DNA from: Oceanobacillus zhaokaii
GTDB taxonomy: Bacteria; Bacillota; Bacilli; Bacillales; Amphibacillaceae
Direction: 5' to 3'
Assembly (NCBI RefSeq): GCF_003352005.1
Contig: NZ_CP024848.1
Span: 3,853,001-3,917,000 of the forward strand
Length of the DNA stretch: 64,000 nucleotides
The notes below the pieces were generated by a model that did no database searches, was not told the origin of the DNA, and was given only the letters and a program-made list of their open reading frames with translations. The translations under genes and the position numbers were made by a program. Positions 33,897 through 52,012 of this stretch are shown one piece after another (within the stretch, counting starts at the first letter, position 1; each line of letters starts with the position of its first letter).

Positions 33897-35258
33897 TTAA
33901 TTAATCAATGCCTGCAACGGTGCAGCAATTCTTCCACCGCGTTTAATAAATTTTTCCGAGCTATATGGGTTTACACCCATAACAGGAGCACGACCTAGAA
34001 GTCCACCAAACTCTACCATTTCCCCTTCTCCCTTACCGGGAACGGGAATAACTCGCACAGCAGTTGTTTTTTTATTAATCATACCAATCGCCGCTTCGTC
34101 CGCTATAATACCAGACAAAGTCGCAGGTGTAACATCACCAGTAAGTGCGATCATGTCCAGGCCGACTGAACAGACACAGGTCATTGCTTCTAATTTCGGG
34201 AGAGTTAAGGAGTTATCCATAATCCCGCGGATCATGCCGTTATCCTCACTAACAGGGATAAACGCGCCACTAAGTCCACCAACAAATGAACTTGCCATTG
34301 CTCCGCCTTTTTTCACTGCATCATTCATTAATGCCAGCGCTGCAATTGTTCCATGGGTGCCGACACGTTCAAGACCAATCTCTTCCAGTATTTCTGCTAC
34401 ACTATCATTCATTGCATTTGTTGGTGCGAGAGATAAATCAACGATGCCAAATGGAAGCTTTAGTCGTTCGGCAACAACACGACCGATTAATTCCCCTGCT
34501 CTTGTAATCTTAAAGGCTGTCTTCTTAATAATCTCGGATATGTCACTTAGATTAGCATCATCATGCCGTTTCAATGCGCTTAAGACAACACCTGGCCCAC
34601 TAACACCAACATTAATGACAGCCTCCCCTTCACCAGTACCATGGAATGCTCCAGCCATAAATGGATTATCTTCTACTGGATTACAGAAAACTACTAGTTT
34701 TGCACAAGCGAGACCATTTTGATCCTTTGTCCTTTCTGCTGCTTCTTTAATAATCATTCCCATTTTCGCAACGGCATCCATGTTAATCCCTGCTCTCGTT
34801 GTGCCAATTGAAACCGAGGCACATACGCGCTCCGTAACACTTAAAGCCTCTGGCAGGGCATCGAGCAATGTTTCGTCACCCTTTGTCATTCCCTTGTGAA
34901 CGAGTGCAGAATAACCGCCAATAAAATCTACTCCAAGCTTAATAGCAGCTTTATCCAGTGTCTTTGCTATTTCAATAGCTTGTTCCTTGCTAGCATTCCC
35001 TAAAATTTCAGCAATCGGTGTAATCGAAATTCGTTTATTAATAATCGGAATCCCGTATTCTCTTTCTACCGCTTCAGCAACTGCCTTTAATTCCCCTGCG
35101 TAACGAGTGATTTTGTTATAAATGTTTTGATTAAGGTTAGCAAAATCAGCGTCTGCACAATCATGCAGACTAATTCCCATTGTAACGGTACGGATATCCA
35201 GATTCTCCATTTGAATCATTCGGATTGTTTCAATCATTTCATTATGTGCAATCTTCAT
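33897..35258 (-). CDS. UPF0210/DUF711 family protein (PFL-like fold)
   Basis: A 453-residue cytoplasmic protein of the UPF0210 family, which resembles pyruvate formate-lyase in fold but has no known activity. Recognisable segments are [46 protein letters not shown] and the end [12 protein letters not shown]. It lies 18 bp after a small ACT-domain gene, a pairing conserved across many bacteria. A glycine riboswitch cassette reads towards this pair from 36.1 kb, which hints at a glycine-related role. Confidence 0.9.
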
Positions 35259-43300: not shown

Positions 43301-43475
43301 TTCTTATCAAGAGAGACTGAGGGATAGGCCCGATGATGTCTCGGCAACAGGTTCTAAATTAGAATACTGTGCCAATTCCTACAAATGCTGAGGCATTTGA
43401 AAGATGAGAACTAGGGTGGATTCTAATAATAGAATCTCTCTTTTCTTATCTACTTAAGAAAAGAGGGATTTTTCG
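43301..43475 (+). ncRNA. SAM-I riboswitch (S-box) with terminator
   Basis: Stem P1 pairs TTCTTATC with GATGAGAA (43301-43410). Conserved elements: ATCAAGAGAG, GGCCCGATGATGTCTCGGCA-ACAG, GTGCCAATTCC and TTTGAAAGATGAGAA. A terminator CTCTTTTCTT/AAGAAAAGAG followed by GGATTTTT lies at 43436-43475. Binding of S-adenosylmethionine should stop transcription before the amidohydrolase gene. Confidence 0.97.
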
Positions 43476-50059: not shown

Positions 50060-51535
50060 CTATGAAATCTTTTCATCCTTTGTATTATCATTTTTCCCAT
50101 TATATCCATCCGCCCAAAAATCAGCATTTTTAATCCCAAGCTTCGTAGAATTAAAGGTCGGATCCAATCCTTGCCTTTTTTGGCGTTCATAATCCTTTAA
50201 TGCGATAATTGCTGGCTTCGCTAATAATACAATCGCAATATAATTCAGCCAAACCATGACACCAAGTCCTATATCGCCGAAGATCCATGCGAGCTGTGAT
50301 TCCTTCACTGCCCCGTAAAAGGTAGCAGCGAGCAACGCTATTTTTAATACACTTGAAGCGATGCTGCTATATTTTCCTTTTACTAAATAAGCTAGATTCG
50401 TTTCAGCGATATAATAATAGGACATAATCGTTGTGAAGGCAAAGAACAATAGTGCAATCGCAACAAACCCAGAACCGAATCCAGGTAAAATACTATCGAC
50501 TGCTGCTTGCGTATATCCCGGTCCTTCCTCTACTCCGGAAATATTTTGAACGATATATTCGCCTGAGCTCTCATCTATCGTATTAAACTGCCCTGTAAAT
50601 AAAATCATAAATGCAGTAGCAGTACATACTAAGAAAACATCTAAATAAATAGAGAAAGATTGAACAAGTCCTTGCTTCACAGGATGGGAAACTTCCGCGG
50701 CGGCTGCAGCATGTGCGCCTGTACCCTGCCCAGCTTCACTCGCATATAGCCCACGCTTCACTCCCCAAGCAATTGCCGCTCCGAGAATACCGCCAAACAC
50801 CGAGTCTCCGCCAAATGCACTGGAGAAAATCAGTGAAAATACAGCTGGAATTTTTTCAGCATTCATAGCAATCGTCAGAATCGCTACCAATATGTATCCA
50901 ACAGCCATAAACGGTACAATAAATTGCGCAACATTTACAATCCGCTTCACTCCGCCAAAAATGATTAACCCAAGTACTAAGACAAGAATAATGCCCGTTA
51001 TAACTGTGCTTGTACCAAAAGCATTATCAAGTGAGATTGCGATCGAATTTGATTGTACTCCCGGCATTAAGAGTGCCATCGCAATCAATGTCGCTATTGC
51101 AAAAATGATGGCATACCATTTTAAACCGAGGCCTTTTTCAATATAATAGGCTGGTCCACCACGATATTGACCATTTTGTTTTTCTTTATAGATTTGTGCA
51201 AGTGTAGATTCTATAAATGCTGATGCAGCGCCAAAAAATGCAATGACCCACATCCAAAATACTGCTCCAGGGCCACCAAATGCGATTGCCGTTGCTGTAC
51301 CTGATATATTTCCTACACCCATCCGTCCTGATAAAGCTAGAGATAAGGCTTGGAATGAAGAAACCCCTTCATCGGAGCTCTTCCCTTTAAATAACAGTCC
51401 AACCATATCTTTAATATGACGGACTTGGAGAAATCTGGATCTTAATGTAAAGTATAGTCCAACCAATACACAAAACGTAATTAGAATCGGACTCCATAAA
51501 AAATTATTCATATTATTAAATATTTGCTCTATCAA
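50060..51535 (-). CDS. Na+/glycine (alanine) symporter, AGCS family, under riboswitch control
   Basis: A 491-residue transporter with 10-11 membrane segments. Family motifs: FLWSPILITFCVLVGLYFTL, GRMGVGNISGTATAIAFGGP, YASEAGQGTGAHAAAA. It has a long loop (~residues 320-345) and a hydrophilic C-terminal tail. The start is TTG at 51535, with GGAGGAG five bases upstream; an ATG eight codons later lacks such a site. A tandem glycine riboswitch directly upstream makes glycine the most likely substrate, and a ZTP aptamer lies further upstream in the same leader. It differs clearly from the symporter at 3775. Confidence 0.93.
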   Translation of the reverse strand: MIEQIFNNMNNFLWSPILITFCVLVGLYFTLRSRFLQVRHIKDMVGLLFKGKSSDEGVSSFQALSLALSGRMGVGNISGTATAIAFGGPGAVFWMWVIAFFGAASAFIESTLAQIYKEKQNGQYRGGPAYYIEKGLGLKWYAIIFAIATLIAMALLMPGVQSNSIAISLDNAFGTSTVITGIILVLVLGLIIFGGVKRIVNVAQFIVPFMAVGYILVAILTIAMNAEKIPAVFSLIFSSAFGGDSVFGGILGAAIAWGVKRGLYASEAGQGTGAHAAAAAEVSHPVKQGLVQSFSIYLDVFLVCTATAFMILFTGQFNTIDESSGEYIVQNISGVEEGPGYTQAAVDSILPGFGSGFVAIALLFFAFTTIMSYYYIAETNLAYLVKGKYSSIASSVLKIALLAATFYGAVKESQLAWIFGDIGLGVMVWLNYIAIVLLAKPAIIALKDYERQKRQGLDPTFNSTKLGIKNADFWADGYNGKNDNTKDEKIS

Positions 51536-51540
51536 AAAAA

Positions 51541-51562
51541 CTCCTCCTCTTATTTAGAGGAC
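51541..51562 (-). promoter_or_regulatory. Possible Shine-Dalgarno-sequestering hairpin of the symporter gene
   Basis: On the minus strand CCTCT and AGAGG pair around AAATA, covering part of the AGAGGAGGAG ribosome site. Just upstream TCTGTCC can also pair with GGACAGA of the second glycine aptamer, so translation may be controlled in addition to transcription. Confidence 0.4.
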
Positions 51563-51591
51563 AGAAAAAAAAGCATGCGTTGCTCTACCCT

Positions 51592-51790
51592 TTGCTCTGT
51601 CCTTTTACCTGAAAGTTTCATCCTAAATAAATAGGATATTCCCCATTGGTGGCGTCCTTGTAAATACGCGCTCTCCAGAGTTGCGTCCAACTGTGATCCT
51701 TCTACCTGAGAGATTGGTTTTCAAGGGTTTTCTTGAAACTTGCTCCTTCGGTGGCTTTGATTCTTGCACTCTCTCACAGCTTTCATCCAC
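51592..51790 (-). ncRNA. Tandem glycine riboswitch
   Basis: Two aptamers read on the minus strand. The first (about 51785-51692) has GCCACCGAAGGAGCAAG and CTCTCAGGTAGAAGGATCAC; the second (about 51690-51592) has AACTCTGGAGAGCG and TTTCAGGTAAAAGGACAGAG. They are joined by the usual short linker. It controls the symporter gene, probably turning it on when glycine is high. Confidence 0.96.
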
Positions 51791-51820
51791 TTATTCATTT
51801 TTAATTAATAGTAGAAAACG

Positions 51821-51841
51821 CTAAAAATGCGCCTTCTGCAT
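51821..51841 (-). CDS. Six-codon ORF between the ZTP and glycine riboswitches
   Basis: ATG at 51841 opens MQKAHF followed by TAG. It has a very strong ribosome site (AAAGGAGGG, seven bases upstream). It may be a leader peptide or the remnant of a gene once controlled by the ZTP aptamer. Translation is unproven. Confidence 0.3.
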   Translation of the reverse strand: MQKAHF

Positions 51842-51857
51842 AGCCTTTCCCTCCTTT

Positions 51858-51900
51858 ATAGCATAAAGAGCTAAGGGATGTTAGAATCCCTTAGCTCTGC
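51858..51900 (-). terminator. Hairpin after the ZTP aptamer
   Basis: Arms AGAGCTAAGGGAT and ATCCCTTAGCTCT with a 6-base loop, followed by TTATGC. Its position immediately after GCCTGGGC makes it the likely expression platform; the T run is short. Confidence 0.75.
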
Positions 51901-51968
51901 CCAGGCGAACGGCTATTCAACGAATGTGTTCCCTCACGGTGATCCGTGTTCGCCAGTCACACATCGTT
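51899..51968 (-). ncRNA. ZTP (pfl) riboswitch
   Basis: On the minus strand: P1 ATGTGT/ACACAT, conserved GACTGGCGAACA, hairpin CACGG/CCGTG, AGGGAA, then GCCGTTCGCCTGGGC. The pseudoknot GGCGAAC with GTTCGCC is complete. It senses ZTP/ZMP, an alarm for lack of 10-formyl-tetrahydrofolate. Confidence 0.9.
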
Positions 51969-51983
51969 TTTTCTATTAATCTT

Positions 51984-52012
51984 ATCCTAGCAGAATTTCT
52001 ATCAAGCTTCAA
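51984..52012 (-). promoter_or_regulatory. Promoter ahead of the ZTP-glycine leader
   Basis: TTGAAG (52012-52007) and TAGGAT (51989-51984) with a 17-bp spacer. No equally good promoter is seen between the two riboswitches. The gap 52013-52223 shows nothing else. Confidence 0.6.

Follow-up and report, generated by a model that had tools for sequence, protein, structure and literature searches.

The gene for an AgcS-family sodium:alanine/glycine symporter in Oceanobacillus zhaokaii is preceded by a leader that carries a ZTP riboswitch followed by a tandem glycine riboswitch. This observation is confirmed here for the window, the whole stretch of 64,000 nucleotides that was analysed (part of contig NZ_CP024848.1). 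The leader is likely to act as an "A AND NOT B" gate on the symporter, with ZTP as the ON signal and glycine as the OFF signal. Comparison between genomes and structural models support the aptamers, their order, a promoter-like site, a covarying hairpin, possible alternative pairings, the gene family and conservation in three species.

Layout of the leader and its surroundings

All elements of the leader lie on the minus strand. A sigma-A-like promoter (TTGAAG-N17-TGnTAGGAT, 52012-51984) precedes the ZTP aptamer, also known as ZMP/ZTP or pfl (51970-51892; RF01750, 57.6 bits against a cut-off of 39, E 9.9e-7). The span 51900-51861 holds a terminator-like hairpin, AGAGCUAAGGGAU/AUCCCUUAGCUCU (hairpin itself 51898-51867), and its short, imperfect U tract. 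It is followed by a Shine-Dalgarno-like AGGAGG without conserved start codon (51855-51850) and by a six-codon ORF (51841-51821). Glycine aptamers 1 (51786-51684; RF00504, 61.3 bits against a cut-off of 32, E 2.9e-10) and 2 (51680-51595; RF00504, 40.3 bits against the same cut-off, E 1e-4) lead into an expression platform (51602-51541), which was folded with and without P1 in three species and ends with the symporter Shine-Dalgarno (51550-51541). The symporter gene (51535-50060, 491 aa) starts with TTG at 51535. The initial annotation, made by reading the letters, had named both riboswitch classes, and the covariance models agree: the ZTP segment matches RF01750, the glycine segments match RF00504 and all three aptamers exceed the Rfam cut-offs. 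The promoter before the ZTP aptamer and the TTG start had also been placed at the coordinates given here (52012-51984 and 51535).

The ZTP and glycine matches are separated by 105 nt. The only ORF between them is the six-codon ORF, which is not conserved. According to the main text of Sherlock et al. 2022 (PMC9481103), a tandem has both classes in the same leader, no intervening ORF and a gap of at most 300 nt; the present leader has this form. Two observations bear on chance adjacency. The 4.1-Mb genome contains one ZTP aptamer and five glycine aptamers (the leader pair, a pair before gcvT and, at 36061-35985 of the window, a single aptamer), and two further species, O. arenosus and O. chungangensis, show the same adjacency. 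A search for the same order in related genomes, proposed in the initial annotation, shows that the whole order is kept in these three species. The gcvT gene behind its own glycine aptamer pair matches TIGR00528 (461.1 bits, cut-off 235.85).

The Rfam cmscan of the 64-kb window returned six matches above gathering scores, including the three leader aptamers. The single glycine riboswitch (36061-35985, minus strand) resembles those of the serine-type leaders described below, with a terminator-like hairpin recognised by eye. An ACT-domain gene (NF001220) and a DUF711 gene (33897-35258) follow it after about 430 nt, and the scan of the window gave no ZTP match near it. A SAM riboswitch (97.6 bits) is present at 43301-43410 (plus strand). 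A Guanidine-I riboswitch and, behind it, a pair of small multidrug-resistance genes (53051-52224, minus strand) lie directly upstream of the ZTP leader; O. arenosus and O. chungangensis showed no such pair there. Intergenic stretches that appear by eye GC-richer and repeat-like occur at about 35800-35680 and at 49860-49800.

The promoter-like site is constant among the 11 ZTP/glycine tandem leaders collected in this work. In all 11 the best site has TTG, a spacing of 17 and TGn before the -10 element, and it lies 22-36 nt before the ZTP core (shuffle p 0.005-0.12, values that are rough because the shuffles are mononucleotide and the score is our own). By the same measure the best score between the ZTP and glycine parts is ordinary in all 11 leaders (p 0.18-0.94). 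The constancy of the site is a better argument for a promoter than these p-values. In the window the site matches 8 of 12 consensus bases and was therefore missed by a promoter scan demanding 9. That scan listed two other promoter-like sites further upstream (52108-52079 and 52070-52043), a number expected by chance. The three symporter leaders are clearly conserved from approximately the promoter onwards, least so in the stretch that separates AGGAGG from the glycine leader. A separate promoter between the riboswitches, which the initial annotation had named, if combined with a lack of read-through from the ZTP part, as evidence against its reading, is not conserved among the three; O. chungangensis has a promoter-like match there (TTAACG-18-AATAAT, 9/12) that does not rise above shuffles. 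One promoter probably serves both riboswitches.

The Shine-Dalgarno-like motif behind the ZTP hairpin is a wider feature of ZTP leaders. Among leaders whose hairpin end fitted the pattern of our script, 37 of the 56 serine-type ZTP leaders with a gene start at least 60 nt beyond the hairpin carry RGGRGG within 30 nt after it (SerA 33/47, SerC 4/9), compared to 1 of 148 control windows from the same leaders. The distance from the hairpin is always 7-13 nt, and a start codon of any kind occurs 4-14 nt past the motif in 10 of these 37. All three symporter leaders have it (control windows 0/26), and further examples occur throughout the order in ZTP leaders such as L031, L033, L243 and L267. The six-codon ORF noticed in the initial annotation sits on the conserved AGGAGG and occurs in this genome only of the three. 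Its interpretation as a leader peptide was rejected because neither O. arenosus nor O. chungangensis has it at the corresponding position. The motif resembles the STAB-SD element of Bacillus thuringiensis cry mRNA; one guess is that it may stabilise the mRNA.

Predicted switching and the proposed gate

In a 20-sequence alignment 12 of the 31 predicted pairs are changed on both sides, pairs of the ZTP aptamer among them. The terminator-like hairpin (-21.3 kcal/mol) is located directly 3' of the P3 3' strand of the aptamer. One of its pairs covaries: 16 of the 20 sequences have G-C, O. chungangensis has U-A, and both this genome and O. arenosus have C-G. PMC2864571, as far as the parts consulted go, describes terminators overlapping many pfl RNAs and a ligand that raises expression; a hairpin abutting P3 fits this view, i.e. 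an ON switch. Binding of ZMP/ZTP and the ON direction are predictions for this leader. The U tract is poor (UUUAUGC), and the terminator scan listed the hairpin in O. chungangensis only, not here or in O. arenosus. Between the parts, the scan also lists another terminator-like hairpin (51837-51813), which it gives for this genome and for neither of the other two.

Taken as one unit in a 1.5-kb stretch, the two glycine aptamers score 96.9 bits against RF03166 (glycine-GGAnGA), under the cut-off of 110 for this family. P1 of aptamer 2 consists of CUCUG and CAGAG (51680-51676 and 51599-51595). The segment GGACAGAG (51602-51595) can pair either in P1 or with CUGUCC (51564-51559), and UCCUCU (51561-51556) is complementary to AGAGGA (51550-51545) within the Shine-Dalgarno. 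Seven U residues follow the AGAGGA pairing region and overlap the TTG start, and the scan gives a terminator-like match at 51561-51545. In the models of the three species the Shine-Dalgarno had a mean unpaired probability of 0.50, 0.22 and 0.41 before P1 was forced and of 0.18, 0.19 and 0.15 afterwards, while the probability of the covering hairpin went from 0.22 to 0.91, 0.76 to 0.86 and 0.03 to 0.81; when P1 was forbidden the Shine-Dalgarno was unpaired with probabilities of 0.42, 0.34 and 0.55. P1 forcing hides the Shine-Dalgarno in all three species, with a small change in O. arenosus, where the free fold already hides it and the predicted glycine effect is therefore small. In the serine-type leaders, an aptamer segment AUCUC can pair with GAGAU of the terminator (GAGAUUGG...CAGUCU plus U tract) in 8 of 8 cases. 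The platforms of both types point to a glycine OFF switch. That of the symporter may act on transcription, translation or both.

The gene itself was called a symporter in the initial annotation, and profile matches place it in the AgcS family (TIGR00835 agcS, 482.9 bits, cut-off 272.65; PF01235, 518 bits, above cut-off). The sole PDB relative found is 6CSE (E 1.3e-75). The gene product is a probable importer of glycine or alanine. Proteins of the AGCS family are reported to symport alanine and/or glycine with Na+ or H+ (PMC5829553, in the parts consulted), and members can carry alanine or glutamine (GutA). Glycine is the cargo suggested by the riboswitch pair.

The following sequence of events may be proposed. 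A single transcript would begin a few nucleotides before the ZTP aptamer. A shortage of 10-formyl-THF would let ZMP/ZTP accumulate and bind the aptamer, blocking the invasion of P3 by the terminator-like hairpin, so that RNA polymerase continues and makes the two-aptamer glycine riboswitch. At low glycine the P1 3' strand of aptamer 2 would pair with the downstream CUGUCC, which would weaken the hairpin over the Shine-Dalgarno and allow the AgcS symporter to be made. At high glycine P1 would form, and the UCCUCU:AGAGGA hairpin would cover the Shine-Dalgarno and might, in addition, terminate transcription at the U tract. Glycine, which donates one-carbon units by way of the glycine cleavage system, would thus be imported when one-carbon folate is short, unless internal glycine is already high. 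The initial annotation had suggested a leader reading both signals; the folds fit its two riboswitches, ZTP as ON and glycine as OFF, while the six-codon ORF it had included drops out of the scheme.

Three other explanations were weighed against this gate. Glycine riboswitches typically induce glycine cleavage or export genes (PMC5829553, parts consulted), and the glycine part could accordingly be an ON switch for an exporter, the leader gating glycine release. We regard this as very improbable: forced P1 favours the Shine-Dalgarno hairpin in three species, weakly in O. arenosus; AGCS proteins are reported as symporters; and the comparable Streptococcus pyogenes leader is OFF, with premature termination at high glycine (both from the same source). 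A review (PMC11477304, again in part) likewise describes the riboswitches before AGCS genes in Vibrio cholerae and S. pyogenes as OFF switches. A cargo that is mainly alanine or another amino acid, with a gate that balances nitrogen or cell-wall precursors rather than one-carbon units, seems unlikely to us but agrees with the names of the Pfam family PF01235 and of 6CSE, both sodium/alanine symporters. Against it, two sensors of one-carbon metabolism precede the gene, and riboswitches often govern the metabolism or transport of their own ligand (PMC5829553, parts consulted).

The ZTP part could also be a passenger, a remnant of a ZTP-serine operon, the symporter being under an internal promoter and glycine alone. 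The absence of serC above cut-off from the three symporter genomes, compared to its presence in the 10 genomes of the genus with a ZTP-serine locus, speaks for such a remnant, as do the match between the parts in O. chungangensis and the poor U tract of the ZTP hairpin. The aptamer, the promoter-like site and the hairpin are nevertheless kept in three species with one pair changed on both sides, no promoter is conserved between the parts, and the symporter loci share no neighbouring genes with four serine loci within 14 kb. A passenger appears improbable, and the two-input gate remains the preferred reading.

Distribution and origin of the tandems

The combination of a ZTP aptamer, two glycine aptamers and a symporter gene was found in 3 of 28 genomes of the genus (this one, G007, taken for O. 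arenosus, and G022, taken for O. chungangensis), 13 of which have a ZTP aptamer. The nearest relatives of the symporter are those of O. chungangensis (95%) and O. arenosus (93%), then Peribacillus asahii (77%); above 90% identity it occurs only in these three genomes (26 genomes of the genus searched). Within 700 nt upstream of 80 symporter relatives, a strict pattern for ZTP- or glycine-like cores matched only in O. chungangensis and O. arenosus, at least four loci having less than 700 nt upstream (L099, L110, L122, L123). The Rfam scan of 17 Bacillota relatives, out of 78 others, gave no glycine riboswitch above cut-off. In the part of PMC6944388 consulted, transport genes lie behind 7 of 48 Bacillaceae glycine tandems.

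At the family level ZTP aptamers occur in 53 of 159 genomes, at 66 places, of which 65 were scanned (G125:C44 being the single place outside the scan). At the order level 147 of 397 genomes have a ZTP match, and 81 loci outside the family were scanned, from among the matches listed at that level. A glycine aptamer lies behind the ZTP part in 11 of the 146 loci scanned, all inside the family: 8 before serA or serC and 3 before the symporter. The serine-type tandems precede serA in G001 and G023 and serC in G006, G013, G026, G055, G194 and G195. None was found in the 81 loci outside the family (three matches at E 0.29-0.79 were taken as chance) with the glycine model R1, which was built from 13 family aptamers with no more than 3 base pairs and could overlook glycine aptamers that are distant. 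The Rfam scan agrees with R1 for 15 of these 81 loci; the first 40 of the 146 loci were additionally scanned with Rfam. The serC of G055 behind its ZTP/glycine leader (L186 6334-7415, minus strand) is read as two overlapping ORFs of 265 and 108 aa and is therefore possibly a broken gene or a sequencing error.

The genes behind 141 ZTP leaders, classified by blastp against seeds named by eye, comprise 59 SerA, 36 SerC, 33 FolD, 3 AgcS, 3 DJ-1-like, 2 amino-acid permeases and 5 others. Five of the 146 loci (L006, L037, L244, L259, L272) misfit the core pattern and were excluded from the gene-class and motif counts. Profile checks covered the AgcS of the window, both permeases and one protein each of the SerA, SerC and DJ-1-like classes. 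Two of the 5 others are cases in which serC, as read from the frames, lies several hundred nucleotides beyond the riboswitch (L022, L209); stretches that look GC-richer and repeat-like by eye are found in between. With 3 AgcS and 2 permeases among 141, import is rare as a ZTP target in this sample. The two permease genes, of the APC family and directly behind a ZTP riboswitch (L260:1632-3077, plus strand; L263:2-1444, minus strand), belong to genomes outside the family of the window and represent a second kind of amino-acid transporter behind ZTP. The DJ-1/PfpI-like genes (L232 and two further loci) are 3 of 141 by blastp, one of them Pfam-checked.

The two types of tandem differ in their glycine parts, 76-81 nt with one aptamer in the serine type versus 198 nt with two aptamers in the symporter type. 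Comparison of 14-kb stretches (blastp 1e-8) found no common gene of at least 80 aa between the symporter loci of the three genomes and four serine loci. Across the 28 genomes, serC exceeds its cut-off (TIGR01364) in 10, which are exactly those that have a ZTP-serine locus, although in G001 and G023 serC lies on a different contig from this locus; the three symporter genomes have neither. The different glycine parts, the lack of synteny and the serC pattern together suggest two assemblies of the gate. We give an even chance to the view that two assemblies took place in one family, each with its own glycine module, and that Oceanobacillus lineages without ZTP-controlled serine genes retain the importer version; the effector would then have been exchanged while the RNA logic was conserved. 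Alternatively, the glycine part may have been swapped.

Two related ideas were abandoned. Replacement of the serine operon in place is unsupported, the loci of the three symporter genomes and the four serine loci being non-syntenic. Serine auxotrophy as the cause of a swap was dropped because 26 of the 28 genomes, all three included, have a full-length PGDH SerA above cut-off, and because this genome has, directly before serA, a 394-aa ORF with a weak serC-model match that is class-V aminotransferase-like by eye.

Comparison with known tandem riboswitches

The leader suggests that the ZTP alarmone may gate amino-acid import in addition to enzymes for folate, purines and serine; should glycine be the cargo, the leader would tie folate stress to the uptake of nutrients. 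The existence of biosynthesis and import versions makes the one-carbon logic testable by reporters in B. subtilis, and the leader offers a natural example in which to study whether the shuffling of riboswitch modules can re-form RNA logic gates.

Several known systems share parts of this design. The S. pyogenes leader also has two glycine aptamers before an AGCS-family gene (sodium:alanine symporter) that glycine represses; the abstract and discussion of PMC5829553 do not mention a ZTP riboswitch for it. The ZTP/THF-I tandem described in the main text of PMC9481103 likewise places a ZTP ON switch before an OFF switch for a one-carbon metabolite, but with another second sensor and other genes. 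The glycine/T-box(Ser) tandem on serC, serA and serS, from the same text, combines a two-aptamer glycine switch, predicted OFF, with a second sensor; it differs in the partner sensor, in the order and in its biosynthesis genes.

The closest likeness is to the ZTP/glycine tandems of PMC9481103. The initial annotation had left unclear whether the arrangement had been described; the order ZTP then glycine is already published there, before a serine-synthesis gene. That search of RefSeq 80 and environmental sequences yielded five examples from Bacillus and Oceanobacillus, interpreted as "A AND NOT B" and placed before a gene that initiates the synthesis of serine from 3-phosphoglycerate. The word "symporter" is absent from the main text of that paper and "transporter" appears in the references only, and in the limited collection of literature searched we found no paper linking a ZTP riboswitch with a symporter or amino acid permease. 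The class of ZTP/glycine tandems is therefore not new, and the importer version appears to be so. Both have the same riboswitch order and the same predicted logic, applied there to a serine-synthesis gene and here to an importer. The 8 serine-type leaders of our scan use one glycine aptamer and an intrinsic terminator, whereas the symporter leader uses two glycine aptamers and a hairpin over the Shine-Dalgarno.
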